From NCBI GenBank assembly GCA_030832185.1, contig JAURJQ010000015.1, positions 1-47,869 of the forward strand: a stretch of 47,869 nt of DNA. The letters are read 5' to 3'. Shown here piece after piece: positions 1,231-47,869 of the stretch (its first letter is position 1; the number at the start of each line of letters is the position of its first letter). The position numbers and the translations under genes were made by a program. The stretch comes from Chitinophagales bacterium. GTDB taxonomy: Bacteria; Bacteroidota; Bacteroidia; Chitinophagales; JADJOU01. The notes under the pieces are model-generated. The model saw only the letters and a program-made list of their open reading frames with translations. It did no database searches and was not told the DNA's origin.

Positions 1231-4200
1231 TTGAATAATTCCCTTTTTATTGGAATTTTACTACTTATCTTGCCGATAGAAAAAATAATTGGTCAGGGTT
1301 GTAGTGATGTATCGGTAAAGGTTTCACCTAGTCCTAGCTCTCCACCTAAGAGAGACACAACTGTCTGTAAAGGCTCAGCTCTAGCTCTATCTGTTAGTGT
1401 TCCTACACTGCGCGCTACTACCTCATACACTGTTAATACTATACCATATATAGATCCTATCCCTTGTGAAAGTACAGGATCTTTGGTGGCAGGATCAGGA
1501 ATAAATATAGATGATGGCTATTCTTCTATACAGAACATCGGATTTGATTTCTGTTTTTTTGGAGTATCTCGCAATCAGTTGCAAATATGTGATAATGGCT
1601 TCCTCACATTTTCGGTCAACAAACCTGTTTTGAGCACCTTAACCGCTCCATTCCTGGTTCAATCTCTTCCATTGGCAGCCAATCCGAATCCAGCTGCTGC
1701 AGCTACTACACTGCCTCCAAACTCAATAATGGGGGCATGGATGGATGCTTATTTAGTCACTGGTGGTTCCAATCCAGGAGGAGGGACCATCACAACTCAG
1801 TTAGTAGGAACGGCCCCATTTCGAGCCTATATTGTCAAGTGGAATGATTGCAAATATTATAACTCTTCATGTAGACCTATTGCAGGTATGTTGTTGAGTA
1901 TGAAAATAGTCTTGTATGAAACTACAAATTTGATAGACATATATATAAAGACAAAACCAATATGCACGGTTGGCAGTACTTTTAGATATCTTACTACACA
2001 AGGCATACAAGGCGACTCTACCTTTAAATTTGCAGTGACTCCTGGTAGAAATAATTCTTTATGGGATGGCGTAAATTCTGCGGTAAGGTATACTCCGAAT
2101 GGAACAATAAATACTACCACCATTCAATGGACTAAAAATGGACTACCAATAAGTGCAACGTCTATTGCCAATATTACGCATTCTGATGATTCTGCTAATT
2201 ATGTAGCTAGCATTAATATCTCACAGCCTTGTCCCTCCGGCTCCTTAATAGCGCGAGATACGATTAAAGTAATCGGACAGAATAATACTGTAAATGTAAT
2301 TAATATATTTGATACGATAAGCTGTCTACCCTCTAAGCTATTCGATGCCACTAATGCCTCTGCATTGAGTTATATGTGGGACAATGGTTCTGTGGCTCCT
2401 ACTAGACTCATTAATACCTCTGGAAGATATTTTGTAGTGCGAAGATATAATGCACTAGGATGTAATAGGGATACTGTATTTTACAATATTAGGAAGTATG
2501 ATGCTATTAAAATAGATTCTGTAAAGCGCATAGGTTGCTTCAATAGTGCCAATTTAGGGCAATTGAGATTCAGTGTATCAGGGGATACATCTGGCTGGTT
2601 AGTAGGGACTAATTCTAATCCGGTGTTGAAAGTAAATCCTATTGCGAATCAGCGAAATGGCACGTTTAGTTATTGGGTGAGAAATGGCGGAAATTGTAGA
2701 GATTCTATTACATTGACTCATGATTCGCTTAGAGCAAATTATTTCAAACGAACTAATTTCTGCAATGGAGACTCAAGTGGTCTTATGCGTCTATCTCCTA
2801 TTGGAGGCTATACTCCATTTAGTTATGGATTGACAGGAAGAACCGATCAATCTATAGATTCATTTCAAAAAATCACCACAGGTATCTATACAATTAGTCT
2901 AACTGATATAAATGGTTGCTCTATTTCTAGAACGGATACCATTATTCCTTTTACCAATCTTTCGTTAAACATCGCTGGGGATAGTGCAAGGTGCTTCGGC
3001 GCGAATACTGGTAGAATAATAGCTAGTCTTTCTGGAGGAGTTCCATCGTATACATATTCTATAAACAATGGAGCCTTTGTCGCATCTGGATCCTTTATAA
3101 ATCTCTCGGCAGGTATCTATATAATTAAAACCAAAGATAGTAAAAATTGCTCCATTGATACTTCGATTACGATTCTTCAAAATACTCAAATTCAGCTTAA
3201 CCTATCCAAGCAAAGAAATTGCCCATTTAATGCAAATGGAGTCATAAGTGGACTAGCTTCTGGGGGCAAACCAAGTTATATGTATAGTCTAAATGGAGGT
3301 AGTTTTCAATCTTCCAATACATTTTCTGGTGTTCTAGGTGGACCGCTTGCCGTTTCCGTGAGAGACAATCTAAATTGTATTCGTACTTTTCAAGACACTC
3401 TGCTATCTCATCCTAAACCTAAATTAAATTTAATAGAAAAAAAGAATTTAAGTTGTTATGCTTCCAATGATGGTAAGATTAAGGTCAACACAAGTACCGG
3501 ATTACCTCCATATATGTATTCATGGAGTGTAACAGGCACTGCAGATTCACTTATAAGCCTTGGTATAGGGACTTATACGGCTTTTGTCCTCGATAATAAT
3601 GGGTGCAGGGACACCTTAATAACAGCAATAACTCAGCCAGATTCATTGACAGCTAGTTTTGTTTTGAAGAATCCTCTCTGCCATAACCAAGGTAGTGGTA
3701 GTATCAAAGTCATAGGTATAGGTGGCACGCCTGGTTATAGATTTTCTATCAACTCAGGGGCGTTTAATTCTATCGATTCCTTTACTAATCTTGCGGCTGT
3801 ATCATATACGATTCATATACGAGATAGCAATCTCTGTCTAAAAACCTATTCCAGAACATTGACGAATCCCAGTGCACTTAATATGCTAATAGGAATAGAT
3901 AGTGTATTATGTTTTGGTGGTAATAGCGGAAATATCAATCTATTAGCTACAGGAGGTACACCAGGATTTACCTATCGTATTAATTCAGGAGCTTATGCGA
4001 GTCCGAATCTATTTTCAGGATTGGTCGCGGGTATGTATACCGCTTCTGTGCGCGATACCAATGGTTGCGTTAAAGACTCTAATGTGATGGTACGTTCTTA
4101 CTCAAAAATAAATAGCTCGATAACGATCTTAGATACCATTCGCTGCAAGAATGAAAGTAATGGGAGAATTTCCATAACCGCTAGTGGAGGAAAGTCGCCG

Positions 4201-7200
4201 TATACCTATTCCATAAATGGTGGTAGTTTCCAGACATCGAATGTCTTCTCTGGTCTAGATAAAGGAATGAAATATATTCGAGTGAAGGATGTCTATAATT
4301 GTGAAATCATAGATTCTATCTATATGATAAATCCTGCAGGTATGATCTCTACAATTAATGTTATTCGTAATGTGAGCTGTTACGGACTTTCTAATGCAAA
4401 AACTAAGGTTATAGTGACAGGCGGTGCGGCACCTTATACCTATTTATGGTCTAATGGAATCACCCTAGACTCTAATTCAACACTCAATAAAGGGTTTCAT
4501 TATGTAAAAATATTGGACAACATAAATTGTCGTGATTCAGTCAACGTTTCTATTTCAGAACCTGACTCATTGCATGCTACACTTTCCATTTATAACCCAA
4601 GATGCCATAATACTCTAGGCTCTATAAAAATTAATCCAATAGGCGGGACCAGTCCATATCAATATTCACTTAATGGTGGCGCATACATTGCTGTAGATTC
4701 CTTTGCAAATCTGACAGGTCAGAGCTATTCTATTACCATACGTGATACCAATGCATGCTCTAAAACTTTGACAGCGGTGCTCATAACCCCTAGCCAGCTT
4801 CTAGCTGGCTTTAAGATGGATTCGGCTAAATGTTTTGGAGACAATACAGGCAAGATTACAGTGAACAAAAGTGGTGGAACTGGGACTAAAATTATTCGGA
4901 GTAACTCTGTAGTTCAATCATCCGATACGATAAAAAATTTAACGGCTGGGTTCTATTACATAGAAGTGCTCGATGCTAATAATTGCAAGGTAGATTCAAA
5001 TATTTCTATTCTTCAGTATCCAGATATTAATATAGCTATAATCAAAGATACGGTGCTCTGCTATGGCGCATCTAATGCTGCGATAACCATCAATGGATCT
5101 GGTGGTGCGGGCGGTTTTCAATACGGAGTAAATAGTTCTGCGTTTGGGTCTTCCAATGTAGTTACAAATTTACCAGCGACTACTCATACAGTCAAGGTGC
5201 GCGATATGAATCTGTGCATTAAATCTCTACCTGTTGTGATATCACAGTTAGATTCTATGATCATAAATCTTCAATTAACACAAAATATTTGTTACAGAGA
5301 CAGTCTAGGTAAGGCTAAATTCAATGTAACTGGTGGTAGTTCTCCTTATACCTATTCATTTAATAATGCCGCTTTTTCAAGTTTTGATTCGTTTATTAAT
5401 TTGCCAGCAGGTAATTATCCTTACAGTGTTCGAGATAAAAATAATTGTTTAAAAACTGGCAGCGTAGTTATCACGCAACCTCCGCCCTTAAATAGTAGTG
5501 CCATCATTGATAGTGTGAAATGTTTTAAGCAGACTACAGGCAGTATTCAAGTGAATCCTTCAGGTGGCACGCCTGGTTATTCGATTTCATTTAATGGACA
5601 AGCCTATGCTAGCACTAGTTTATTTGCATCCTTAGCCGCAGGAAATTATAATATTAAAATTCGGGATGCGAATCAATGTATAAAAGATACGAATGTCATT
5701 GTCAGATCGAGTGATTCTTTTTATTATTTATTTACAGTAGATAGTCTCGACTGTTTTAATGCGAATAATGGCCGCGTGACTCTAACCCCTGTGGGTGGGA
5801 AATCTCCATACCAGTATAGTCTTAATGCAGGAGCATTCAATTCAAATAATGTCATCTCCAATTTGACACCAAACGCTCATTCGATAAAGATTAAAGATGT
5901 TTATAATTGTACATTAAGCTTAAATATGACACTTCAAAATCCAAGCCCTATTTTAATTCAAACCGATAGTAATATATCAAATCCATGTTTTGGTGATGCC
6001 AAAGGGCGACTGCAGATTTCGAGCAGCGGGGCTAAATTACCTCATACCTATCTTTGGTCAAATGGGTTGATTACTACTAGAATTACAGGCCTCCTCGCTG
6101 GGACATACACCGTCACCGTTCGTGATGCAAGAAATTGTGCCAAAACACAAACGGAGATTATTAACCAGCCCCCAGACTTTAGCATTGCTCCCATACAACA
6201 AAATTTAAAGTGTTTTGGGGATACAGATGGTAGCATCAGTATAGCTGTGACAGGAGCTAGTCCAGGATATACTTATCTATGGTCAAATGGAAATTCAACC
6301 ACTTCTATTGTAAATCTAATCAAAGGTATATACTCTGTCACTGTGACGGATGCCAATTCTTGTATTACGACTCGAAACTATAATCTGACGCAGCCCGATT
6401 CGATTTCATTTAATCTAGCTAAGACCAATAGTCATTGTGCGGCATCAAAAGATGGTACGATATCAGTCGCTAACTATTCTGGAGGTACCGGTAACCCTTC
6501 CTTTGCATGGAGTCATGGCCCTACTACTATGAACCTTGGGTCTCTAGAACCATTTAAGACTTATACCGTTACAATTACTGATGTCAATAATTGTCAAAGA
6601 CAAAAATCCATCTATATTGATACCATGTATTTACTGAGGATTAAGCTGGATACTCTGGGTATACCTCGCTGTCCATATAGTCTTCTAAATTTAAAACTGA
6701 CACCTTTATCCGGATCGATTCCTTTTGAATTTAATTTAGGGGGATTGAAAAATAGTACGGGAGATTTCCTAAATCAGAAAAATCAAAAATATGTCTATAG
6801 TGTGCAGGATAAATACAATTGCAGCTTTACTGATTCGATAGATTTAGTGCCGAGAGACACTATGAATCTTAATATAATACTTTATTCACCTCCATGCGAG
6901 TCTGCCAATATTTTCCCTGTCAAAGCGAACGTATCAGGAAGTAAAAAGCCATATACCTTCGATTGGCCTCGATCATTTCTAGCTATAGGCGATTCCGCTA
7001 GATATAATGAATCTGGCTACTACGAAGTCGAGGTGAGAGATAATTATAATTGCTTAGTGAAAACTGGTTTCAATCTAACCTTGCCAGAGGGGGCACTGGA
7101 AGGGGTCTTTACAGAAAGAAAGAACTTAAGCTGCTTCAAATTTAATGATGGGATGCTGAAAATTGAAGGTAGAGGAGGAGTCCCGCCTTATAAATATTTA

Positions 7201-8088
7201 TGGAGTACAGGGGAAACATCCGAAAGAATATTCAACCTAGAGGCGAATAAAATCTATCAAGTGACTATCTTCGATTCCGATACCTGCAGATACGTGATGG
7301 ACGGCAAACTATCTCAGCCAGATTCACTAGAGATTGATATTAATAAAACGGATAAAACATGCCTAGAAAGTTCGAACGCGATTATATCTCTTATAGCTAC
7401 AGGAGGTAATCCAAGTTACAGGTATTCTATTGATACGAGTCAAGGCTATCAAAAAGATTCTATTTTTTATGCTGTAAAAGAAGGCAATTATTTGGCTGTG
7501 GTGAGAGATGATAGTTCTTGTACTGCTGCGCAACCGGTGTCCATCGGTATTAAATATGTATTGAATTTAACCTTAGATTCCATTTATCAAATTAAATCTG
7601 GGGCTACCATTTTTATTAATCCCAGTTTAAGTTTAATGCCAAGCTCAGCTTTTTATATCCCCACGTGGACTCCAAGCCTAGGACTGAGCTGCACGGACTG
7701 CCTCAGCACAGAGTTTAGCGGCTATCATACCACTCGTCTAAATTTAAATCTAAAATACGGCGAAGGATGTATCGCAGACTACACTACTCTGGTAAAGGTA
7801 GAGGATACAGAAAAAGACGAACTCTTCATTCCTAATGCTTTTTCACCTAAAGCAGAAAATGAAGAAAATCGAACCTTTAAAGCTTATGCTAACCGTGTAT
7901 TACGATTCGAAATGTCTGTCTATAACCGCTGGGGCGAGAAAGTCTTCGAGACGGATGACATTAGAATAGGCTGGGATGGAAACTATAAAGGCGAACCTGC
8001 TCCTGCAGGGGTATATACCTACACGCTTACGTTGACTAAATTAGATGGAATCAGGCTAATAAAGTCAGGGGAGGTTAGTTTGTTTTAG
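1231..8088 (+). CDS. giant SprB-repeat surface protein with T9SS type B C-terminal domain
   Basis: Secreted protein of 2285 residues. The start codon is TTG: an in-frame stop at 1207-1209 leaves no ATG or GTG before it, and the first residues form a signal peptide (hydrophobic SLFIGILLLILP). Residues about 20-330 form an N-terminal region with a FDFCFFG / NGFLTF segment seen in many Bacteroidota surface proteins. From about 427 to 2110 there are roughly 22 repeats of about 72-75 residues with the pattern C-F-G-N-x-G ... GGTPGYTYSINGGAF ... GxYTVxVRDxxxC, the SprB repeat. Residues about 2197-2285 form the gliding-motility-associated C-terminal domain (FIPNAFSP, YNRWGEKVFE, GWDG, PAGVYTYTL), which directs type IX secretion. 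SprB itself is a mobile gliding adhesin in Flavobacterium; whether this protein drives gliding or only adhesion cannot be told. Confidence 0.93.
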   Translation: MNNSLFIGILLLILPIEKIIGQGCSDVSVKVSPSPSSPPKRDTTVCKGSALALSVSVPTLRATTSYTVNTIPYIDPIPCESTGSLVAGSGINIDDGYSSIQNIGFDFCFFGVSRNQLQICDNGFLTFSVNKPVLSTLTAPFLVQSLPLAANPNPAAAATTLPPNSIMGAWMDAYLVTGGSNPGGGTITTQLVGTAPFRAYIVKWNDCKYYNSSCRPIAGMLLSMKIVLYETTNLIDIYIKTKPICTVGSTFRYLTTQGIQGDSTFKFAVTPGRNNSLWDGVNSAVRYTPNGTINTTTIQWTKNGLPISATSIANITHSDDSANYVASINISQPCPSGSLIARDTIKVIGQNNTVNVINIFDTISCLPSKLFDATNASALSYMWDNGSVAPTRLINTSGRYFVVRRYNALGCNRDTVFYNIRKYDAIKIDSVKRIGCFNSANLGQLRFSVSGDTSGWLVGTNSNPVLKVNPIANQRNGTFSYWVRNGGNCRDSITLTHDSLRANYFKRTNFCNGDSSGLMRLSPIGGYTPFSYGLTGRTDQSIDSFQKITTGIYTISLTDINGCSISRTDTIIPFTNLSLNIAGDSARCFGANTGRIIASLSGGVPSYTYSINNGAFVASGSFINLSAGIYIIKTKDSKNCSIDTSITILQNTQIQLNLSKQRNCPFNANGVISGLASGGKPSYMYSLNGGSFQSSNTFSGVLGGPLAVSVRDNLNCIRTFQDTLLSHPKPKLNLIEKKNLSCYASNDGKIKVNTSTGLPPYMYSWSVTGTADSLISLGIGTYTAFVLDNNGCRDTLITAITQPDSLTASFVLKNPLCHNQGSGSIKVIGIGGTPGYRFSINSGAFNSIDSFTNLAAVSYTIHIRDSNLCLKTYSRTLTNPSALNMLIGIDSVLCFGGNSGNINLLATGGTPGFTYRINSGAYASPNLFSGLVAGMYTASVRDTNGCVKDSNVMVRSYSKINSSITILDTIRCKNESNGRISITASGGKSPYTYSINGGSFQTSNVFSGLDKGMKYIRVKDVYNCEIIDSIYMINPAGMISTINVIRNVSCYGLSNAKTKVIVTGGAAPYTYLWSNGITLDSNSTLNKGFHYVKILDNINCRDSVNVSISEPDSLHATLSIYNPRCHNTLGSIKINPIGGTSPYQYSLNGGAYIAVDSFANLTGQSYSITIRDTNACSKTLTAVLITPSQLLAGFKMDSAKCFGDNTGKITVNKSGGTGTKIIRSNSVVQSSDTIKNLTAGFYYIEVLDANNCKVDSNISILQYPDINIAIIKDTVLCYGASNAAITINGSGGAGGFQYGVNSSAFGSSNVVTNLPATTHTVKVRDMNLCIKSLPVVISQLDSMIINLQLTQNICYRDSLGKAKFNVTGGSSPYTYSFNNAAFSSFDSFINLPAGNYPYSVRDKNNCLKTGSVVITQPPPLNSSAIIDSVKCFKQTTGSIQVNPSGGTPGYSISFNGQAYASTSLFASLAAGNYNIKIRDANQCIKDTNVIVRSSDSFYYLFTVDSLDCFNANNGRVTLTPVGGKSPYQYSLNAGAFNSNNVISNLTPNAHSIKIKDVYNCTLSLNMTLQNPSPILIQTDSNISNPCFGDAKGRLQISSSGAKLPHTYLWSNGLITTRITGLLAGTYTVTVRDARNCAKTQTEIINQPPDFSIAPIQQNLKCFGDTDGSISIAVTGASPGYTYLWSNGNSTTSIVNLIKGIYSVTVTDANSCITTRNYNLTQPDSISFNLAKTNSHCAASKDGTISVANYSGGTGNPSFAWSHGPTTMNLGSLEPFKTYTVTITDVNNCQRQKSIYIDTMYLLRIKLDTLGIPRCPYSLLNLKLTPLSGSIPFEFNLGGLKNSTGDFLNQKNQKYVYSVQDKYNCSFTDSIDLVPRDTMNLNIILYSPPCESANIFPVKANVSGSKKPYTFDWPRSFLAIGDSARYNESGYYEVEVRDNYNCLVKTGFNLTLPEGALEGVFTERKNLSCFKFNDGMLKIEGRGGVPPYKYLWSTGETSERIFNLEANKIYQVTIFDSDTCRYVMDGKLSQPDSLEIDINKTDKTCLESSNAIISLIATGGNPSYRYSIDTSQGYQKDSIFYAVKEGNYLAVVRDDSSCTAAQPVSIGIKYVLNLTLDSIYQIKSGATIFINPSLSLMPSSAFYIPTWTPSLGLSCTDCLSTEFSGYHTTRLNLNLKYGEGCIADYTTLVKVEDTEKDELFIPNAFSPKAENEENRTFKAYANRVLRFEMSVYNRWGEKVFETDDIRIGWDGNYKGEPAPAGVYTYTLTLTKLDGIRLIKSGEVSLF
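2509..7560 (+). repeat. about 22 tandem SprB-type protein repeats
   Basis: Degenerate tandem repeat encoded at roughly 216-225-bp spacing. Well-kept units include those beginning near 2985 (CFGANTG), 3900 (CFGGNSG), 4830 (CFGDNTG), 5510 (CFKQTTG) and 6210 (CFGDTDG). Two subtypes alternate: one with YSINGGAF-like centres and one with YLWSNG centres. The units near 6660-6930 are the most diverged. DNA identity between units is low, so the array looks old rather than freshly expanded. Confidence 0.85.
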
Positions 8089-26768: not shown

Positions 26769-29132
26769 ATGAAAAAGATTTCTATCCTTTTAATCGCAGT
26801 AGTTTCTACTATTGCATCACAAGCACAGCAATGGGTGAGTACATCACCTGCCAATAAAGTTGCGATACTAGAAGAATTTACAGGTAGAAACTGTACATGG
26901 TGTCCTGATGGTCATGAAATAAGTGACCAGTTAAAAAAAGACAACCCTGGAAAGTATTATGCGATTAACATTCACGCTGGTTCTTTTGCTCCTACTACTG
27001 CTCCTAACTACACGACTACTGTTGGAACAGCAATTGATGCTGCTTCCGGAGTTACAGGTTACCCAGCTGGTACAGTAAATAGAAATAGTTCCCCATGGGC
27101 TTCAGATAGAGGTACATGGACTGGAAAAGTAGCTACTGTGATTGGACAATCATCTCCTGTTAACGTTTTTGTAAAGTCTTCTGTAGATTATAATACAAGA
27201 GTATTGACTACAGAAGTTGAAGTTTATTATACCGCTAATGGTCCAGGAACATCAAATAAATTGACAGTAGCATTATTGCAAAATGGAATTCTTGGTCCAC
27301 AATCTGGTATGGATAAGTATCCTGCTAAAATTGTAGGTACTCAATACCAGCACGACCATATGCTAAGAATGCATTTGACTCCAGGTACTTGGGGAGAGGC
27401 AATTACTGATATTACAACCGGAAAATTTACAAAAAAGACATATAATACAGTTTTACCTGCCAATATAAATGGAGTTCCTTTGGATATTTACAGTTTAGAA
27501 GTAGTTGCATTTGTTTCTGAGGCTAACAACAATATATTAAGTGGCCATGGCACAGAGGTGACTCATAATAATCCAAATCTTATAGACTTAGATTTGAAAG
27601 ATTCTTCAATTTTGCCTGTAAGAGGATTTTTGGAGCCTGAAACCAAATGGTGTAATAACAAAGTGACGCCAAGAGTTGTAGTCACGAATAATTCTTCAGC
27701 TGTTACAGCAACGGCTTTCACTGTCACTGCTACAGTGAATGGGGTAGCAACTCCTAAAACGTTTACCGGCAGCCTTGCTCCAGGACAGAGGACAGTGCTT
27801 ACATGGAATGAAATTCCAGTGAATGCTTCTGGTGTTTTTGCATATAAAGTAGAAGGATTCACAAATATTAATGGTGGAACTGTTATCACGGACGTAAAAA
27901 CAGGAAATAACTCATATTCAACGAATTTAATAGGTATTAAGCCTAATGCTTTTACTACGTATAACCAAGATTTTGAAACAGCCCCATTTGTGAATTCATT
28001 TATAGATGCTTCTGATAATAATGCTTATGCTCTGGTTACTAGCACAACTGGCTTAGGAGCTGAAGCTTCTAAAAGTGCTTTAAGATTGGCTCTGCATAGT
28101 TCATGGCAAAAAAATGGACTCGGTCTACATTATATTATGGGTGAAGCTAATATGATAGGGGTTACTTCTCCTTCATTAACTTATTATTACGCATATTCAA
28201 ATTCAGGTGAAGAAAGTTCTTCTGCTCCTTCGGTAAAGGTTTCTTACTCTACGGACTGTGGAACTAACTGGATCGATGTAGATACGAAAGTTTGTGCAGT
28301 TACTGGTACTGCACCTGCCTCTCCTGCTGGTCAATGGTATGTTCCTACTTCAGCTCAATATCAGAAAGTAGATGTGGCCCTTACTGCATTAGTAGGTAAG
28401 AAATGCCTAATCAGAGTTTCTGGTGTACCAGGTGATGGTGGAAATGCATTATATATTGATCAAATATCCCTTAAGAGTTCTGGTGGCTCTGGCGGTGGCG
28501 GAGGAGGTACATCTAGTTTAGACACTTTCCAGCTTAAAGTATTTAAAGTAACAACTGCTACTAAAACAGCAGAAGATGTAGTAGGAGGAGTTTCTATGAC
28601 GAAAGATAGCATGTATACATGGAAAATAACAAATGTGAATATGCCTTCTGGTTGGACATTCTTGACTATCTGTGATGCAGAGAATTGTGTAAATTACCCA
28701 GCTTCGCAGAGAGGTACTTTTAAAGCAAAAGCTCTTGTATCTGATAATGTATACAAAATCACTATTGATCATGCCAAAATAGTGGGTTATGGCTCTGTAA
28801 CCTTGAAAGCATGGAGAGGTAAGGATAGTACAAGTGCTACATTGGCTAAAGATCTTAAATTCTCTATGTTGACATCTAATAGCTCTAGTATTTCTGTTGT
28901 TTCTGATTTAAATGACAAATTGTTATACTATTTCGACAACAAAGTATTTGTAGATAGAGAATTCGCTGGAACAGACTTAGAGGTATTTGATATCAAAGGA
29001 CAAATGGTTCTTAACACAAAAGTAAATTCAGACAATATCGATTTCACACCATTAACTGGCGGTATCTACATAGTTAGAATATCTAGAGATGGTGAGATTT
29101 TAAAATCACATAAGTTTACTACAGCTAAGTAG
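26769..29132 (+). CDS. secreted Omp28-like protein with CxxC motif and T9SS type A sorting domain
   Basis: 787 residues. The signal peptide is MKKISILLIAVVSTIASQAQ. The N-terminal part (about 22-270) resembles Omp28-related outer membrane proteins, with EEFTGRNCTWCPDGH (C42 and C45), a thioredoxin-like CxxC site, and NIHAGSFAP after it. A middle beta-rich region follows, with a cysteine-containing segment around 480-570. A glycine linker (GGSGGGGGG, near 573-581) separates a further domain. The last 70 or so residues (DLEVFDIKGQMVL, TPLTGGIYIVRI) are a T9SS type A C-terminal signal. It is therefore likely secreted or anchored on the surface. A redox role is possible but unproved. It ends before a strong terminator. 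Confidence 0.85.
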   Translation: MKKISILLIAVVSTIASQAQQWVSTSPANKVAILEEFTGRNCTWCPDGHEISDQLKKDNPGKYYAINIHAGSFAPTTAPNYTTTVGTAIDAASGVTGYPAGTVNRNSSPWASDRGTWTGKVATVIGQSSPVNVFVKSSVDYNTRVLTTEVEVYYTANGPGTSNKLTVALLQNGILGPQSGMDKYPAKIVGTQYQHDHMLRMHLTPGTWGEAITDITTGKFTKKTYNTVLPANINGVPLDIYSLEVVAFVSEANNNILSGHGTEVTHNNPNLIDLDLKDSSILPVRGFLEPETKWCNNKVTPRVVVTNNSSAVTATAFTVTATVNGVATPKTFTGSLAPGQRTVLTWNEIPVNASGVFAYKVEGFTNINGGTVITDVKTGNNSYSTNLIGIKPNAFTTYNQDFETAPFVNSFIDASDNNAYALVTSTTGLGAEASKSALRLALHSSWQKNGLGLHYIMGEANMIGVTSPSLTYYYAYSNSGEESSSAPSVKVSYSTDCGTNWIDVDTKVCAVTGTAPASPAGQWYVPTSAQYQKVDVALTALVGKKCLIRVSGVPGDGGNALYIDQISLKSSGGSGGGGGGTSSLDTFQLKVFKVTTATKTAEDVVGGVSMTKDSMYTWKITNVNMPSGWTFLTICDAENCVNYPASQRGTFKAKALVSDNVYKITIDHAKIVGYGSVTLKAWRGKDSTSATLAKDLKFSMLTSNSSSISVVSDLNDKLLYYFDNKVFVDREFAGTDLEVFDIKGQMVLNTKVNSDNIDFTPLTGGIYIVRISRDGEILKSHKFTTAK

Positions 29133-38163: not shown

Positions 38164-38401
38164 ATTAGAGAGCGATTAATATTCACCAAAGGCAGTATAG
38201 AATCATGTGATTATAGTATAAATGTTCATTGTTAGCACACTTTTAAGTGCCTTGGTTAGGACTTTAACTTATGTATTGATAAACTGCTTAAGGTTTTGAT
38301 AATGAATGTTTAATACAATTTAAGTAAAGAAATCTTTAAATCTTCAATAAATGTTAACGTTTTGTTAATTAATTGTTAAAGAAAATGGACCCCATTTGTC
38401 T

Positions 38402-38409
38402 TACATTTG
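38402..38409 (+). promoter_or_regulatory. TAnnTTTG element for the Oar-like receptor gene
   Basis: TACATTTG; predicted start near 38416, 20 bases before the ATG at 38436. This position rules out the further upstream in-frame ATG. Confidence 0.6.
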
Positions 38410-38435
38410 CCGAAATAAATTTTAAATCACAAATA

Positions 38436-41400
38436 ATGAAAAAACAATTAATTCTCATTTTGAGTATGCTTTTTATCACTGGCTACATGATGTCACAGGT
38501 GACTTCTGGAGCTGTCTCTGGTAAAGTAGTTGATAGTAAAAAGCAGCCACTGCAGGGTGCAAAGATTAAAGTAACCCATGTACCTTCGGGTTCAGTCTAT
38601 GGTTCCTCTTCTCGTGCTAACGGTACGTATGAAGTGAGAGGACTAAGAGTTGGCGGTCCATATACAGTGGAAGTAAGTTATCTCGGTAAAGGAAAAGATC
38701 AAGTGAATAATGTTTATGTCACGCTTGGGGAGCCTATTTCCGTAGATCTTAAATTAGAAGAGTCGGCGACATTGATAAAAGAAGTCCTCGTAACCAGTGC
38801 CAGAAATAGTATTATTAATGAGAATAGAACGGGTGCTGCTACCAATATAAATTCCACTATGATTAACTCTATGCCTACAGGTAATCGAACCTTAAGCGAC
38901 ATGACGAGATTATCTCCTCAGAGTGGTGCAAGTTTTTCTTCAGGATTAAATAATGCAAATACTTTCGGTGGTCGTGATGGCAGATATAATAACCTTCAAG
39001 TAAATGGTGCTAATTTAAATAACGGGTTCGGTCTTTCTTCCAACCTAGCTCCAGGTGGTTCAGGTCAGCCTATATCCTTAGATGCTATTGAAGAAATTCA
39101 AGTAGGTGTGTCTCCATTTGATATCCGTCAGACAGGTTTCACAGGTGCCAACATCAATGCTGTTACAAGAAGTGGTACGAATGAGTGGCATGGTTCAGCT
39201 TACACTTTCCAAAAAACGAATGGACTAGTAGGAGATAAAGTAGATACAGTGAATCTAGATGTAAAGAAAAATACCAATGCTATATATGGATTTAGAATCG
39301 GAGGTCCAATTATAAAGAATAAACTCTTCTTCTTTGGTAACTTTGAAACAGAGAGAAATGCCTTCCCTGGAAATACTTGGGTTACTAAGACAGGTGGTCT
39401 ATCAGGTAACGTAAGTAATGTGAGTGCAGATAGTATGAGAAAATTTAGAACTCATTTAGGTACCTTAGGATATGATGCTGGTGAATTTGAAGGTTATGCC
39501 GACGAGTTTGTCAATAAAAACATGAAATTCTTAGGTAGAGTAGATTGGAACATCAATGAAAATAACAAATTCTATGTGAGTTATAGTCAGATGAATTCCT
39601 CAGAAGATAATTTGGTAAACGCTACTTCAGCTCCAAATGGATTGACAAGATTATCGAATGCACGAGTAGGAGCCAATGCGCTTTCATTCCAGAATTCAAA
39701 TTATTCATTTGATCATGTAGTCAGAACAATTTCTGCAGAATTGAACAGTACACTGAATCCAATTATGCACAATCAAATTTTGGGTACATACTCTTATATT
39801 AACGATATACGGTCTACACCAGGTAGTATTTTTCCTTTCATTGATATTACAAATGGTGGAACAAATAACTATATGTCTGCTGGATCAGAGTTATTCTCAT
39901 ACAAAAATGATTTGATTAACACCAATTTTATTGTTACTGATAACTTGAATATCGATTTAAAAGATAACCAATTAACCATTGGAGCTTCATTCGAAAATCA
40001 ATCGTTCGAAAATAGTTTTTTAGGTGGAGGAAATCTCTATTATAGATACAATAGTCTAGCAGATTTTATGAATAATGCAAGACCTACTGCATTTTCAGCA
40101 GCTTATCCTTTAGCTTCTCAAAATGGTAATACCTATGTTAGAGCTTCTTATTCTCAATTGAGTGCTTATATACAAGATAAGTATACTGTGTCTAAGCGAT
40201 TGACATTGACAGGAGGTATTCGTTTCGAGTTACCTTTTTATGATAATTCACTCTTAACAGCAAATCCTGCTGTAGATGCGTTGAAGTTTACAGCACCAAA
40301 TGGAACACAAACGAGCTTTACTTCTGGTCAATTCCCTTCACAGCAGTTGATGGTGTCTCCTAGATTAGCATTTAACTGGGATGCACTAGGGAATAGAAAT
40401 CTTCAAGTAAGAGGTGGTTTAGGTGTATTCACTGGTAGAGTCCCATTCGTTTGGTTAACGAACCAAGCAGGTGGTATCGGAACATTAGTAACTAACGTAG
40501 CTTATTCCTCTACAGCTCAGTTAAATCCAATTAAATTCTATACTTCTTTAGAAGATATGAAGGCCAAAAACCCTACGGAGTATGCTAAATTACCTCAAAC
40601 TACTTCAACTGCACCAAGTTCTGTAGTGGTAGTAGATCAGAATTTCAAGATGCCTCAAATATTAAGAGGAGATTTGGGTATAGACTATAAATTGCCTTGG
40701 TATGGATTGATAGCTACGGGAGAGTTGGTGGTTTCTAGAGATATCAATAATGTATATCAATATAACGCTAATTTACCTTCGGCTCAAACTTCACTATTTA
40801 CAGCTTCAGGTCAGGATACTAGACCAAGATGGACAAGCAATAGATTGAATTCTTCTATTAATCAAGCATTTGTTTTAACTAATACGAGTCAAGGTTATTC
40901 TACCATTTTATCTTTAGGGATAGCTCGTCAAGCTAGAAAAGGTCTTTACGGATCTTTCTTCTATACGAGAACCATTTCAGAGGATGTTTCGTCTAACCCA
41001 GGTTCACAAGCTTCTTCTGCATGGAATTCATTGCCAAATAATTCCTCACCGAACGTACCAGTAATGACAACTTCTCAGTACAATACTCCACATAGATTAG
41101 TTGGTTCATTAGCCTATAAATTTGAGTACGGTGCTAAAAAAAATGTAGCAACAACGGTTTCTTTATTCTTCGAAGGTGCTAATCCAGGAAGATACAGCTA
41201 TATGTTCAATAATGATGTTAATGGAGATGGCTCTGCTTCAGATTTGATTTATATTCCTAATAGCGCTTCTGAATTAAACTGGACGCCAATAGTAAGAACT
41301 GCTGCTCAAGGTGGAACGATTACTGTAGCTCAGCAGCAAGCTATATGGGATGCTTATGTCGCTCAGGATGAATATTTGAGTGCGAATAAAGGCAAATATG

Positions 41401-41750
41401 CATCAAGATATGGAGCTGTCTATCCTTGGTATACTCGTGTTGATATGAGAATTCTTCAGGATTTCAGCTTTAAAATTAAAGATAAAAAGCATACAATTCA
41501 GTTGAGCTGGGATATCATTAATTTACCAAACCTTCTCAACTCTGCATGGGGTGTTCAGAAACAGTTAGCTATTGGAGGTTTATCCAATAATAATAACGTA
41601 TTGAGAACATCTACGGGTACTAATAATCCAACATATACACTAAACTACGATAATAATCTGCAGTTATTAGACTACAATAGAACTTTTGTAAATAATAATT
41701 CAGTGTTTAGTACATGGTTTATGCAAGTAGGTGCTAGATATACCTTCTAG
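38436..41750 (+). CDS. Oar-like TonB-dependent outer-membrane protein
   Basis: 1104 residues from the chosen ATG. An in-frame ATG 63 bases earlier lies upstream of the promoter motif and lacks a signal peptide, whereas MKKQLILILSMLFITGYMMSQ is a good one. Residues about 25-110 form a carboxypeptidase-regulatory-like domain (GAVSGKVVDSKKQPLQGAKIKV). A plug region follows at about 120-250 (NGANLNNGFGLSS, ISLDAIEEIQVGVSPFDIRQTGFTGANINAVTRSGTNEWHG). The rest is a large beta barrel ending WFMQVGARYTF. The organisation matches Oar-type proteins common in Bacteroidota and myxobacteria. The substrate is unknown. An intrinsic terminator follows. Confidence 0.92.
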   Translation: MKKQLILILSMLFITGYMMSQVTSGAVSGKVVDSKKQPLQGAKIKVTHVPSGSVYGSSSRANGTYEVRGLRVGGPYTVEVSYLGKGKDQVNNVYVTLGEPISVDLKLEESATLIKEVLVTSARNSIINENRTGAATNINSTMINSMPTGNRTLSDMTRLSPQSGASFSSGLNNANTFGGRDGRYNNLQVNGANLNNGFGLSSNLAPGGSGQPISLDAIEEIQVGVSPFDIRQTGFTGANINAVTRSGTNEWHGSAYTFQKTNGLVGDKVDTVNLDVKKNTNAIYGFRIGGPIIKNKLFFFGNFETERNAFPGNTWVTKTGGLSGNVSNVSADSMRKFRTHLGTLGYDAGEFEGYADEFVNKNMKFLGRVDWNINENNKFYVSYSQMNSSEDNLVNATSAPNGLTRLSNARVGANALSFQNSNYSFDHVVRTISAELNSTLNPIMHNQILGTYSYINDIRSTPGSIFPFIDITNGGTNNYMSAGSELFSYKNDLINTNFIVTDNLNIDLKDNQLTIGASFENQSFENSFLGGGNLYYRYNSLADFMNNARPTAFSAAYPLASQNGNTYVRASYSQLSAYIQDKYTVSKRLTLTGGIRFELPFYDNSLLTANPAVDALKFTAPNGTQTSFTSGQFPSQQLMVSPRLAFNWDALGNRNLQVRGGLGVFTGRVPFVWLTNQAGGIGTLVTNVAYSSTAQLNPIKFYTSLEDMKAKNPTEYAKLPQTTSTAPSSVVVVDQNFKMPQILRGDLGIDYKLPWYGLIATGELVVSRDINNVYQYNANLPSAQTSLFTASGQDTRPRWTSNRLNSSINQAFVLTNTSQGYSTILSLGIARQARKGLYGSFFYTRTISEDVSSNPGSQASSAWNSLPNNSSPNVPVMTTSQYNTPHRLVGSLAYKFEYGAKKNVATTVSLFFEGANPGRYSYMFNNDVNGDGSASDLIYIPNSASELNWTPIVRTAAQGGTITVAQQQAIWDAYVAQDEYLSANKGKYASRYGAVYPWYTRVDMRILQDFSFKIKDKKHTIQLSWDIINLPNLLNSAWGVQKQLAIGGLSNNNNVLRTSTGTNNPTYTLNYDNNLQLLDYNRTFVNNNSVFSTWFMQVGARYTF

Positions 41751-41803: not shown

Positions 41804-42077
41804 GCCTAAAAATTTATCATCAATACTTCTTCAAAAAACTTTATTCACTTCTCGGCAAAAACACCTCAAATAGGCATAAATTAAAGAAATTTATCTTAGT
41901 TTAATCATAGAATACAGGGGGCGAAACAATGCTTTACGAAGTTGAAAATACAATTTAGTATATTTATAACAAAAAAATATTAATAATACTTGTTAAATCT
42001 ATTGATACTTTAACATAAAAATGCGAATTTTGGAGGTTAAAAAATATCAACATAATTTTTTAAATTACTACATTAAA
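41804..42077. other. intergenic gap before the giant adhesin-like gene
   Basis: 274 AT-rich bases with no gene. I looked for a TAnnTTTG element on the plus strand and found none, unlike most other genes here. A GGAGG-like run occurs near 42032 but is too far from the ATG at 42078 to be its ribosome binding site. Confidence 0.5.
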
Positions 42078-45000
42078 ATGAAAATAAAAATAACTGTCCT
42101 TTTGTTGATTATTGTGCCTTTTTGGATTCAATCACAGCATCTCACCATTTCCACCTCTGGGGAAACGGGCCCTACCAGCGGTACTAACTGGAGCATTACT
42201 GGAAATACCCTTAATGTTGCTTCTTCCGGAACAGCGAACATACACCCCAGTGTAATTACCAACCACCTGACCAATATTGGCAGTTTAACCATCAACTTGC
42301 CTTGGCAAAGTGGCACAACCCGTGATATATACATCAACAATACCATTGCATACACAGGTAGCAATGCTCGCACGCTGACGATCAATGCGGCAAATGATTT
42401 AATTGTAGCTAGCGGCGTCAGTATTACCTCGAGCAATGCATCCATGAACCTGGTGCTTAGATCTGTCATGGTTTCGGGTACACCTGACCATGGAAGAATT
42501 CAACTGAATGGCGCCACGATTACCACCAATGGAGGTCATTTTTGGGCAGGTGGTGGTGTAACCAATACTACATGGAATGGCCTTACGGTTGGCAATACCT
42601 ACTCCAGAACCTGGGCAGATGATATAGCAGGAATCACCTTTATAGGTTCCAGCCTAACCACCGGTGGTGGCAGTGTTTATATGGCGGGTATGTCACACAA
42701 TACCAGTGACGGTGATGGAGAAAATTATGGAATAAATATAAGAAACAGTACCATATCATCAGGAGTCGGACAAATAGACATTTTAGGGGAATTAAAGGGT
42801 ATGTATGGCACCGGCAGCGGACTCGGCATATTTGGCAACGAGGGGCCTGTGAGCATCAGCGCGACAACAGGAGCAATAAACCTCACCGGAACAGGAGTAG
42901 ACCAAGCAGGAACCAATACTGGTTGGAGGAGAGGTCTCTTATTGTATACCCTCTCTAGCTCTGGAATCTCTGTTACTACTAACTCGGGCAATATTACTAT
43001 CAGCGGATCAGCTGCTTTTCCGATCAATGCCAATGATGACATGATGGGAATCCAGCTGGGTAGCACTCAGGCCATCGCTGATGGTGTTAAAATAACTTCT
43101 CGAACAGGGAATATATTACTTATGGGCTCTAACTCTCGCGAGAATGCTGGTCAATACAGTAATGCGGTGCAGTTTATTGCGGCTAATGTTGCCAATTCTA
43201 TCAGAATTGGCCACGATGGAACCAATGCATACAGTGGTAATATCACCATCGAGGGCAATTCCATTATCCAAAACAATGTTAATACCGGCTCAGGCTCCAT
43301 TTCTGTTCAGTCAACCGGAACTTTGACCATCAGGCCTTCAGGCAGTGCATTTACCTACCTTCGCGCAGGAGCTTCCGGTACCCTTACCTTTGATAACGAC
43401 TGGAACTTTGGCACGACCCTGAGCGGTTTCACTTTTGGTAAATCTGGCAATAACCTGGCCATTTCATTTAGCAATGATATCACCCTGAATGGACCCTTTA
43501 CGGCATATGGAAGCAACATGGGCCTTAACGGAATTGCTGCCAATGGAGATGTTTACATTCGATCAACCGCTTACATTGACCAAAATGGTGCCAAAACAAC
43601 CTCCACCAATGGAGGTGACGTTGTTTACTGGGCCGGCGGTAGCGGCGAATCCTACATTCGTCCAGGAACCATAACTACCAATGGCGGACATGTATTCATG
43701 GGTGGTGATTTTGATGCTGTAAGTACACGCACATGGCAAGGTCTTACGGTAGGTGGTGGTTATGCTTTTTCAACCAGCTGGGCAGGAATTGCCCTCAGGG
43801 GAAACATAGACACACGGGTTACCAGCAATCAGAGTGTGGGTGGCGATGTATTATTGGCCGGAGAAAGCAACCAAGCCAACGGGGGAGATGTAGAGGCAGA
43901 GAGCACGAACCGCACCATATCAACCGGAAATGGAGATATTACGCTTATGCCTTACAGCGAAGTATTGCAGAATGGAGGTAATTCTCTGCAAATGGTACTG
44001 AGCACCACCGGTAGAGTGTCTGTAGCACCTGTTAGCGGAAAAACATTTTGGTCTGGGCAAACCCGCACCTACAATGGCTCCATGAGCAGCACCACTTTTA
44101 ATGGAAGCAGCGCTTTACTTGGGCTCCAAATTCTTAATTTTTCAAGTATTACGGGCCTGGAACTAGGTACCTACAGCGGCACAGGTGTTGTTGGTGATAA
44201 TGCATATACCAACAGCAATGTTAAAAACATGACGCTGAATGCTGCTTTCACGGTGGCAGGACCCATCTCGGTATGTGGTGGCAACCTAACCCTCAACAGT
44301 ACCTGTTCCACAACCGTTGCCACAGGCCATATCAACCTGCTTGCTTCCGGAGACATCATCCAATCTGGCGCCATTACCACCCAGGGAGGCTCTTTGGTGG
44401 CCTGGGCTGACAGAGATGGAACCGGCGGAGGCAGAATTCATTTCAACGCCAATATCACCACCAATGGCGGGCACATCTATGCCGGCGGAGGAACAGCTTC
44501 TGAAACACCGGCAGGCACTAGCTTAACGGTACCAACCGGATACGCATCTTCAACCAATGCGCTCTTTAGCGGGTTGATTGTGAATGGCAATACCATTAAC
44601 TCGAGTGGAGGTACTATCCGCATGAAGGGTTCATGCAGTGCTATAAACGGCGACAATGCTGGAGTAATGGTTTATAATACCTCTATCAGTTCAGGGGCCG
44701 GTGCCTTAACCCTCGACGGAAAACGTCTAGGCGACCCGTTCCGTTCTGGAGGGTTGTATATTGGCACAGAAATCTCCAGCGGAATTTCTACCGGCAGTGT
44801 GACTATTTCTTCTACCAGTGGCAATATATCTCTTGAAGGCACCACAGAGAGTATTACTGCAGGGCATTCGTGGACACACGGCTTGGCGATTGTAGAATAT
44901 GGAGGAGACGATGTTACCATTACCAGTACCACAGGTAATATTACACTATATGGAGACGCAACCAGTGCAGGGAACCAAGCTGGAGAAGCTGTAGGATTCG

Positions 45001-47869
45001 TAATTCAGTCAGACAATGTAGCAGGCCTTACCCGCATCAATACCGATGGAGGAACTATTTCCATTACCGGAATCAGCACAAATGTAAGTCCCGACTTCGG
45101 CTCAAGTTATCGTGGTGCTAATACTTCAGGAAACATTACCATCGGTGATGCCAATACCGGAAATATTACATTGCGTTTCGGTTCGCTTTCAGGCAATACC
45201 AATGCCGGCGCAGTTTCTCTTCAAAGCGCCGGAAATTATGTACTTGAAGGAATATCGGGTGGCGCATTTGCTGCTAGTATTGATATCAACGGATCTTATT
45301 CTTTCGGGTCAGCAGGTACAGGGCTGCGCGTAGGAAGCACTACCAACAACCAGGATGTGGTTATGCGGCCCAACACAACAATAGCAGGACCCATTACCAT
45401 TTATGCCAACCAATTTAGTTTTTTCAACAACCTTATCAGTTCAACAGCATCAGACATTGGCATTTATGCCAATACCCATGTGTGGACCAACAATGTAAGG
45501 CAAACCATACAAACCGCCGGTGGCAACATTTACCTGTATGCCGATGCCGATGCCAATGGATCCGGACAATTGGACATTGATTATTTAACCTTTAATCCCG
45601 GTGCCGGAAACACCGTCATTCGCGGTGAAACAGTCGCTTGGAACTCAGGAAGCGTCGCAGGTCCATTCATCAACGGTACCGGAGGTTTTACTTTTGAGTC
45701 GAGTGATGCCTCATTTGGCCAAGATATCTACACATCCTGGTTTGAAATCGATCAGGACGGCAATGGTATCAGCGCTTTAGCCTTCGGGAAATCGGGAAGC
45801 ACCCAAAATGTCTATCAAAATTCGAATCTAACCATTGCCGGTCCAGTAAATTATATCGGAGGCACCATTGGAATAACCGGAACATTAACAGCAACTAATG
45901 CTAATGTTAATTTACGGGCAACTACTGCTGTGACACAGTCCGCAGCCATATCTTCAGCAGGCCTGACATTGAATGGCACCGGAACTTTTACCCTCACCAA
46001 TACTTCCAATAATTTCACCACCCTGGCAGGCGGTGCGGTTGGGGCTTTAATTGGCGCCACACAGATTATTGATGCCTCCGGCGGGTTAACCATCGGAACG
46101 GTGGGCAGCAATACGGGATTGTTGGGATCCAGCACTATCCGTGTAGAAACTCTCGCGGGCAACCTCACCCTGGCAGGCTCCATCAGCACCACCAGCACCT
46201 CCACCGATGCCGTCATCTTAACGGCTGCTAAAAATACAGCCATCGGCGTGCCTACAGGCGGAGATATTTTGGTTTCGGGAAGCCCGACCATTACCATGGG
46301 CTCGGGTGCCATTGCCAAATTATTTAGTGGTTATGATCTTACCAGTACCGGACTTGCCGCATTGGCAGGGGGGGCTTCGAATGCACGATATAACTACGAT
46401 GAAACCACGACTACCTTCAATCCTACATTAAGTGCAAACAACACCTATGCAATTTACCGTGCTGCCCTGGGTTACGGAGATTTAACCATTGTAAGCTCGG
46501 GCGGAGATGCTGAAGGCACTACCTGGACCTATGCAAGCGGTGTGATAAGAACGACAAGCGGCACTGCCAATGTATTGAATACCGATGTTCAAACAAAATT
46601 AAATTCGGGGAATCTTTCCATAGAGGCGAATAAAGTAACATTCAGCGCCAATGTAACAGGCACCACCAGCAATTCATTCAGTATTCTTTCAAAGACACAC
46701 GTTTTAAATACAAACGCAACAACCATAACTACACAAGGAGGAAATGTACTGTTTGCTTCCAATGTAGATGATGCAGCGGATGGGGAATCGACTACCAATG
46801 GATACATACAACTGCGAGGTGGGATAACCATAAACTCCAATGGCGGTAATATCACATTTGGCGGGGGTAATACTTCTGGAAGTGATTATGCTTTTGGTTC
46901 TTCGGCTGAAGATTTAACTGAGGGTGTCCGTTTTGATGCCGTTATTGCATTGAACTCAGCAGGTGGGGATATAACAATTCGCGGAAAATCGTATGCCAGA
47001 GCTGTTCAATGGACTTGGGGAGCATCCGGTGTTGGTTTCTATTATTTTTCCGCCGCAACCGGCTCAATTAATAGTGGTTCAGGTAAAATAACCATTGATG
47101 GATTTAGTCAAACGAACACAAGTGATTACGCATCTGGAATTTACAGCATGCATAATATAACCATTACTTCTGCAAATACGACTGCAGATGCAATCCGTTT
47201 AATTGGCAAAGCGACCGGAGCCAGTGGCCACGCGTGGGGAATAGAAACAGAAAATGTCTTTTCTGTATTAGCCACTGCTGCCGGAGGAGGAATAACCATC
47301 AGCTCCTCGCAGCAAATTGCGAATAATTATGATGCCGTTTTCAGGGGCGAAACCAACATATTGGCCGTAAGTGGCCCTATTCAAATGTTAGGCAAACAAG
47401 ATGCTGGTGTGGCAAACGGAAGATGGTTTATTGGCAGTGATTTCTATTTGGGTTCTAAAGCTTCCAGTTCCGTTACCTCCAGCTCCAGTAACATAACAAT
47501 TCAATATGACTTGTATGATTTTAGTGCTCGAACCCCAAGATTGGCAACTTCCGGAACTATAGATTGGAAACCTGCTTCAACCAGTTTTGGACAATCTGTT
47601 TATACTACCTGGTTTCTTTGGAACCAAAATAGCCAGACCCCGAGTGGGCTAACAATTGGTAAAATAGGCAATGCAGCGGATGTTTTCTTTCATTCAGCCA
47701 TCACTGTAGCTGGACCGATTAACGTGTATGGCAATTATGTTGAAGTGGGCGGTGCTGGTTCTATTACAAGCTCTGGAACTGGTGATATATTGTTGAAGGG
47801 AATAGCCAATTCCAATGGAAGTGTCAATATCGGTGCAGTCAGTATTACTAAAACTGGTGGCACAGGAAC
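42078..47869 (+). CDS. giant beta-strand-repeat surface protein, 3' end outside the window
   Basis: The frame is open for 1930 codons from the ATG at 42078 to the window edge. The signal peptide is about MKIKITVLLLIIVPFWIQSQ. The rest is almost entirely Gly, Ser, Thr, Asn, Ile and Val in short strand-turn units (for example GSITLSGN-like, TNGGHxxxGGG, AGPIxVYG), the pattern of right-handed beta-helix proteins such as filamentous-haemagglutinin-like and other adhesins. Longer modules recur (see findings). Cysteine is very rare. The body has visibly higher GC than neighbours. The C-terminus is not available, so a T9SS sorting domain is expected but unseen. No specific ligand or function can be named. 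Confidence 0.88.
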   Translation, partial: MKIKITVLLLIIVPFWIQSQHLTISTSGETGPTSGTNWSITGNTLNVASSGTANIHPSVITNHLTNIGSLTINLPWQSGTTRDIYINNTIAYTGSNARTLTINAANDLIVASGVSITSSNASMNLVLRSVMVSGTPDHGRIQLNGATITTNGGHFWAGGGVTNTTWNGLTVGNTYSRTWADDIAGITFIGSSLTTGGGSVYMAGMSHNTSDGDGENYGINIRNSTISSGVGQIDILGELKGMYGTGSGLGIFGNEGPVSISATTGAINLTGTGVDQAGTNTGWRRGLLLYTLSSSGISVTTNSGNITISGSAAFPINANDDMMGIQLGSTQAIADGVKITSRTGNILLMGSNSRENAGQYSNAVQFIAANVANSIRIGHDGTNAYSGNITIEGNSIIQNNVNTGSGSISVQSTGTLTIRPSGSAFTYLRAGASGTLTFDNDWNFGTTLSGFTFGKSGNNLAISFSNDITLNGPFTAYGSNMGLNGIAANGDVYIRSTAYIDQNGAKTTSTNGGDVVYWAGGSGESYIRPGTITTNGGHVFMGGDFDAVSTRTWQGLTVGGGYAFSTSWAGIALRGNIDTRVTSNQSVGGDVLLAGESNQANGGDVEAESTNRTISTGNGDITLMPYSEVLQNGGNSLQMVLSTTGRVSVAPVSGKTFWSGQTRTYNGSMSSTTFNGSSALLGLQILNFSSITGLELGTYSGTGVVGDNAYTNSNVKNMTLNAAFTVAGPISVCGGNLTLNSTCSTTVATGHINLLASGDIIQSGAITTQGGSLVAWADRDGTGGGRIHFNANITTNGGHIYAGGGTASETPAGTSLTVPTGYASSTNALFSGLIVNGNTINSSGGTIRMKGSCSAINGDNAGVMVYNTSISSGAGALTLDGKRLGDPFRSGGLYIGTEISSGISTGSVTISSTSGNISLEGTTESITAGHSWTHGLAIVEYGGDDVTITSTTGNITLYGDATSAGNQAGEAVGFVIQSDNVAGLTRINTDGGTISITGISTNVSPDFGSSYRGANTSGNITIGDANTGNITLRFGSLSGNTNAGAVSLQSAGNYVLEGISGGAFAASIDINGSYSFGSAGTGLRVGSTTNNQDVVMRPNTTIAGPITIYANQFSFFNNLISSTASDIGIYANTHVWTNNVRQTIQTAGGNIYLYADADANGSGQLDIDYLTFNPGAGNTVIRGETVAWNSGSVAGPFINGTGGFTFESSDASFGQDIYTSWFEIDQDGNGISALAFGKSGSTQNVYQNSNLTIAGPVNYIGGTIGITGTLTATNANVNLRATTAVTQSAAISSAGLTLNGTGTFTLTNTSNNFTTLAGGAVGALIGATQIIDASGGLTIGTVGSNTGLLGSSTIRVETLAGNLTLAGSISTTSTSTDAVILTAAKNTAIGVPTGGDILVSGSPTITMGSGAIAKLFSGYDLTSTGLAALAGGASNARYNYDETTTTFNPTLSANNTYAIYRAALGYGDLTIVSSGGDAEGTTWTYASGVIRTTSGTANVLNTDVQTKLNSGNLSIEANKVTFSANVTGTTSNSFSILSKTHVLNTNATTITTQGGNVLFASNVDDAADGESTTNGYIQLRGGITINSNGGNITFGGGNTSGSDYAFGSSAEDLTEGVRFDAVIALNSAGGDITIRGKSYARAVQWTWGASGVGFYYFSAATGSINSGSGKITIDGFSQTNTSDYASGIYSMHNITITSANTTADAIRLIGKATGASGHAWGIETENVFSVLATAAGGGITISSSQQIANNYDAVFRGETNILAVSGPIQMLGKQDAGVANGRWFIGSDFYLGSKASSSVTSSSSNITIQYDLYDFSARTPRLATSGTIDWKPASTSFGQSVYTTWFLWNQNSQTPSGLTIGKIGNAADVFFHSAITVAGPINVYGNYVEVGGAGSITSSGTGDILLKGIANSNGSVNIGAVSITKTGGTG

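Follow-up and report, generated by a model that had tools for sequence, protein, structure and literature searches.

Locus and open reading frame

The window analyzed here is the whole of contig C9 (47869 bp) from a Chitinophagales genome bin of 2.2 Mb, 31 contigs and 99% completeness. At its right-hand end lies a frame on the + strand that, as the preliminary description had stated, runs for 1930 codons without a stop, from an ATG at 42078 to the final complete codon before the contig ends (42078 to 47867). Among 200 Markov shuffles of the region, read in six frames, open frames reached at most 213 codons, indicating that the giant frame is a real coding sequence. Starting instead at another ATG of this frame, at 42021, would lengthen the product by 19 residues. 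The product is dominated by glycine (15%), threonine (13%), serine (12%) and asparagine (9%), is also rich in isoleucine and contains three cysteines. The features of the locus are as follows.

38373 to 41750, + strand: upstream neighbor, an outer-membrane beta-barrel protein (OMP) with a carboxypeptidase-regulatory-like domain (PF25183, PF13620)
42078 to 47869, + strand: giant beta-helix protein, truncated coding sequence of 1930 residues, open at the contig end
42078 to 42134, + strand: likely Sec signal peptide, MKIKITVLLLIIVPFWIQS, residues 1 to 19, with typical n, h and c regions as judged by eye
42132 to 43583, + strand: head module, residues 19 to 502, an N-terminal cap plus beta-helix (profile A3, 702 bits)
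43662 to 44204, + strand: incomplete second occurrence of the head-type helix with a weak score, residues 529 to 709 (A3, 27 bits)
44397 to 45482, + strand: another, capless copy of the head-type helix, residues 774 to 1135 (A3, 123 bits)
45759 to 46466, + strand: second module type, residues 1228 to 1463 (profile A4, 312 bits)
46479 to 47807, + strand: one more, weakly scoring copy of the helix module, residues 1468 to 1910 (A3, 26 bits)

Since the window is a complete contig, the giant gene has been cut by the assembly and its 3' end falls in an assembly gap. The end of C9 showed no overlap with the ends of the 30 other contigs, so that the continuation is apparently not in the bin; other pairs of contig ends there have 141 bp in common, presumably the word length of the assembler. 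Four contig ends bearing type A/B sorting tails (start of C16, end of C23, end of C12 and start of C15) were considered as the missing C terminus and rejected, as none overlaps C9, their repeats are of other types and the start of C15 overlaps the end of C13 instead. At these four ends, too, the assembly stops within a repetitive gene for type IX cargo, and cargo of this kind may thus be under-counted in MAGs.

Modular architecture of the giant protein

The leader sequence proposed in the preliminary description looks like a signal peptide by eye, and the homologues too have a hydrophobic leader, immediately N-terminal of the motif (A/S)Q(H/N/D)LTI. The rest of the protein could be described with two profiles built in this study, A3 for the head (approximately 480 residues) and A4 for the second module (approximately 240 residues). 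Close to the end of the head module there is an invariant DWNFG. Comparison of the protein with itself revealed degenerate internal copies at offsets of approximately 385, 617 and 646 residues; the copy at residues 529 to 709 is 31 to 36% identical in this comparison, and the one at residues 774 to 1135 appears at an offset of approximately 645 residues. The second module is dispersed through most of the family, with 40 to 51% identity in relatives. The three motif types singled out beforehand recur at two or three positions each: TNGGH at residues 150, 534 and 795, FGQ(D/S)(I/V)YT(S/T)WF at residues 1213 and 1837, and AGPI..(Y/C)(G/A) at residues 727, 1103 and 1878.

No Pfam or NCBIfam model matched the 1930 residues, in agreement with the earlier remarks that the module types could not be named and that no enzymatic domain was recognised. 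A sequence search of the PDB with the window protein returned no relative, and a partial search of the literature found no paper describing the modules. The MBG, YDG and haemagglutinin-repeat domains that had been named as candidates gave no match in the window residues either. Some relatives resemble the TIGR02601/PF12951 proteins in having autotransporter-type beta strand repeats between their helix modules, unlike the window protein, in which, as in the rest of its genome, no such repeats were found. A further difference from autotransporters is that scans of complete relatives reported no autotransporter barrel.

Relatives in Bacteroidota and type IX export

A first search, covering 395 genomes of the class, returned two homologues, one of them the 3140-residue protein described below, and when the head profile was run against 84,980 species genomes it gave 30 named loci. 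Those in Bacteroidota belong to Crocinitomicaceae, Saprospiraceae, Haliscomenobacteraceae and Flavobacteriaceae and include the isolates Maribacter aquimaris and Flagellimonas marinaquae; no relative was found in the viral contigs searched. Complete relatives range from 1262 to 8062 residues, and all start with the same head of approximately 480 residues. The closest head (71% identical) belongs to a gene product of 6649 residues from the MAG LBMAG_Bacteroidetes_epi.bin3, and the 8062-residue relative, from Haliscomenobacteraceae (L106), is collinear with window residues 778 to 1930. Taken piecewise, homologous stretches cover the greater part of the window protein. The last 340 or so residues of the window protein (1589 to 1930) are 71% identical to L107, which runs on for approximately 1190 residues, over the rest of its frame and one more, before ending in a type A-like tail. 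On the L107 pattern the window protein would have about 3100 residues, and on that of the 8062-residue relative it would be far longer. The L107 homologue is spread over three overlapping frames (L107:3457-12795), reflecting either indel errors in the MAG or a decayed gene. A Crocinitomicaceae MAG has two paralogous head-bearing genes in tandem (L114:7776-14494).

The preliminary description had pointed to type A/B sorting domains of the type IX secretion system (T9SS), and such domains (type A, TIGR04183/PF18962; type B, TIGR04131/PF13585) were indeed found at the C termini of relatives, the window copy being cut before its own C terminus. Complete homologues L112, L111, L114 and L118 end in type A tails (Por_Secre_tail); the first of these, a complete protein of 3140 residues from a pond MAG, has autotransporter-type beta strand repeats as well. 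In L125, and in L107 with its separate last frame, the type A-like tail scores below the Pfam cut-off, and a type B tail (CHU_C) closes both the protein of M. aquimaris (L109) and the 8062-residue L106, with a PorP/SprF gene directly after each. The 6649-residue relative ends almost identically to L106: the C-terminal regions of these two giants (L149 and L150 in genome G784; L146 and L147 in G783) are nearly identical and their PorP/SprF partners similar, while the helix bodies differ more, so that tails and bodies seem to evolve separately.

The genome of the window carries a SprA_N domain (457 bits, E = 3.9e-137) and approximately 43 type A tails above the cut-off, from which we conclude that it most likely encodes a T9SS. 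Further type IX cargo is found in the window itself. The gene at 1231 to 8088, which has a response regulator gene on one side and the S10 ribosomal protein operon on the other, encodes 2285 residues with 17 SprB repeats and a CHU_C tail, and that at 26769 to 29132 encodes an Omp28-like protein whose type A sorting tail is weak.

Known systems offer a close parallel. The type B cargo of Flavobacterium johnsoniae, known or predicted to be adhesive, depends on PorP/SprF shuttles (PMC12618676), and SprB binds SprF (PMC9143113). The giant protein resembles these SprB-type adhesins in being very large and repetitive, with a likely Sec signal and predicted type IX export, and some of its relatives share with them the CHU_C end and the adjoining PorP/SprF gene. 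Unlike SprB, however, it has a body of unnamed beta-helix modules, the Pfam scan of the 1930 residues giving no match to SprB repeats (PF13573), and unlike the F. johnsoniae type B cargo, many of its relatives have type A tails.

Structural models of the two modules

The description of the product as a giant beta-helix surface protein gained support from AlphaFold2 models (built on alignments made here) of two of its parts, both beta-helices: residues 19 to 500 with a pLDDT of 91.2 and a pTM of 0.93, and the second module with a pLDDT of 91.6 and a pTM of 0.90. Foldseek alone gave a weak lead from the head to EtpA. With VIA-align, the head was closest to the secretion domains of EtpA (8cpk; Z 21.3, rmsd 3.0 over 285 aligned residues) and HMW1 (2odl; Z 21.0), followed by HxuA (Z 19.5), the autotransporter Vag8 (Z 18.9) and full EtpA (Z 18.2); other beta-helices scored approximately 16 or less. 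For the EtpA domain and for HxuA, the aligned region begins with the first residues of both chains. As modeled, the head would be a capped right-handed beta-helix like those of two-partner secretion (TPS) exoproteins such as EtpA, HMW1, FHA and HxuA, although fold alone does not confer membership in that class. For the second module, a resemblance to hexapeptide-repeat (left-handed helix) enzymes was discarded, since the rmsd of approximately 12 is not meaningful, and other beta-helices reached only Z 7 to 9, so that we name no structural relative for it. A beta-helix has roughly 20 to 25 residues per coil of 0.48 nm and, by this general geometry, 1930 residues would form a rod of approximately 40 nm.

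Tailspikes and polysaccharide lyases are right-handed beta-helices too (with Z of up to 16), and an enzymatic module is therefore possible in the unseen part. That the protein as a whole is a giant lyase or epimerase acting on extracellular polysaccharide nevertheless seems very unlikely to us. Enzymes of both kinds do appear in the VIA-align list at Z 13 to 15, but TPS adhesins stand clearly higher (Z 18 to 21), and catalytic Pfam or NCBIfam domains are missing from the window part, as they are from the complete relatives in a Pfam scan. In addition, most conserved positions are occupied by glycine or by aromatic or small residues, which is typical of coil turns.

Helix modules shared with two-partner exoproteins

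Three of the loci lie outside Bacteroidota, in the isolate Hydrogenophaga palleronii NBRC 102513, an Oxalobacteraceae MAG and a Nitrospira MAG. Their proteins contain the helix module at 42 to 44% identity, all three possess a true TPS domain (PF05860), and in each case a ShlB/FhaC gene lies directly upstream. The head module, lacking most of its cap, is placed behind the TPS domain (375 to 462 bits) and is present in two copies in the Nitrospira protein. The second module occurs in two of the three (approximately 180 bits) and YDG domains likewise in two (L117 and L119). The two MAG contigs could be misbinned, and it is the Hydrogenophaga isolate that carries the case for sharing. In the phylogenetic tree, the modules of the TPS proteins stand apart from the canonical type IX heads with support of 98/96; as the tree is midpoint rooted, it does not fix a direction of transfer.

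These relatives raise the question of whether the window protein is itself a two-partner (type Vb) exoprotein, that is, an FHA-like filament exported through an FhaC/ShlB partner. The head model is nearest to TPS-exoprotein structures, aligned from the mature N terminus, and sequence-related modules do occur in true TPS exoproteins next to ShlB. However, PF05860 did not match the window protein at E 0.01, nor any other head member even at E 5, a profile-profile comparison (hhalign) of the head with true TPS domains gave a probability of 0.4%, and the NPNG/NPNL motif is absent from the window protein. Because the head is thus not a TPS domain by sequence, its likeness to TPS proteins is one of fold only. 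ShlB (PF03865) was not detected in the window genome, a result to be read with the fact that the control genomes gave no match either. Where two-partner exoproteins have an N-terminal TPS domain and an FhaC/ShlB partner, the complete Bacteroidota relatives end in type IX tails. We therefore regard two-partner export of the window protein as highly improbable and favor type IX export.

A further reading, which we advance as tentative and would not place at even chances, is that filament bodies have moved between two unrelated outer-membrane export systems, type IX and two-partner secretion. Bacteroidota would then export the beta-helix module via type IX, behind a TPS-like N-terminal cap without a partner, and Pseudomonadota and Nitrospirota would export the same module by two-partner secretion.

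Insertion of the giant gene next to a tRNA gene

The upstream OMP gene marks the left edge of an insertion and is not part of the adhesin. Its orthologues in two sister species (G001 and G003) are 70 to 83% identical, and in both genomes the order is OMP, tRNA-Lys and a conserved block, with no giant gene in between. In the window genome the OMP gene is followed by the giant gene, and tRNA-Lys and the block lie at the end of C15, at most approximately 120 bp from its edge. As the sister junction is empty and the two flanks are found on C9 and C15, the giant gene is inserted between OMP and tRNA-Lys. The first 120 bases at the C15 edge contain a strong hairpin and no long frame, which places the stop of the giant gene either within the gap or right at its margin. 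Within the order, 5 of 398 genomes have the head, and all four genomes of the same genus lack it, a distribution that fits gain by transfer. From the empty sister site and the patchy family, the gene was probably gained by the lineage of the window.

A foreign origin of another sort, with the gene joined to this contig through misassembly or contamination, would agree with its absence from the four congeners, with a contig end inside the gene and with its third-position G+C of 0.42, against 0.23 to 0.40 in neighboring genes. We consider this, too, very improbable: the orthologous right flank with its tRNA-Lys lies at the edge of another contig of this bin, as insertion predicts, Gly/Ala/Thr-rich coding lifts G+C at the first two positions, and relatives of the gene exist in the same order.

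Two possible vehicles were examined and rejected. A mobile element integrated at tRNA-Lys was discarded because the sole match to the tRNA is 12 bp, too short to claim an att site; this stretch, ACTACATTAAAA at 42067 to 42078, has the first base of the giant gene's start codon as its last letter, is identical to 12 bases of the tRNA-Lys on the far side of the insertion and may be a chance match. A plasmid origin was dismissed after neither module matched in 72,556 plasmid records. At the same tRNA-Lys in G003, a short frame resembling a GIY-YIG endonuclease by eye (L161:8125-8519) is flanked on both sides by a 40-bp direct repeat, into which the last bases of the tRNA fall, and the site may be prone to insertions.

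A probable type IX filament with a shared body

Taken as a whole, we think it quite probable that the gene encodes a modular, rod-like beta-helix protein exported to the surface by the type IX system, most likely an adhesin, with adhesion suggested by analogy. The likely Sec signal peptide would bring it to the periplasm, a C-terminal sorting domain, predicted in the missing 3' part, would take it through the SprA translocon, and the result would be a stiff filament kept on the cell surface. For the window protein itself, we infer the type IX tail, the surface anchoring and the adhesive function. The idea of an undescribed surface system is not upheld, since export probably follows the known type IX route, known TPS adhesins have this fold, and adhesion, the probable role, is what such proteins usually do.

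The less ordinary part is the module common to type IX and two-partner proteins. Two modules without a Pfam or NCBIfam model recur in giant proteins of many Bacteroidota as well as in two-partner exoproteins, so that annotators could build two profiles for proteins as yet unnamed by any curated model. If the modules have indeed been transferred between the two systems, neither the filament nor the way it folds would depend on the route of export. The shared modules offer a natural experiment on whether beta-helix adhesins need an export partner to fold: surface folding is believed to contribute to driving export in two-partner secretion, whereas type IX cargo is believed to cross the membrane already folded.
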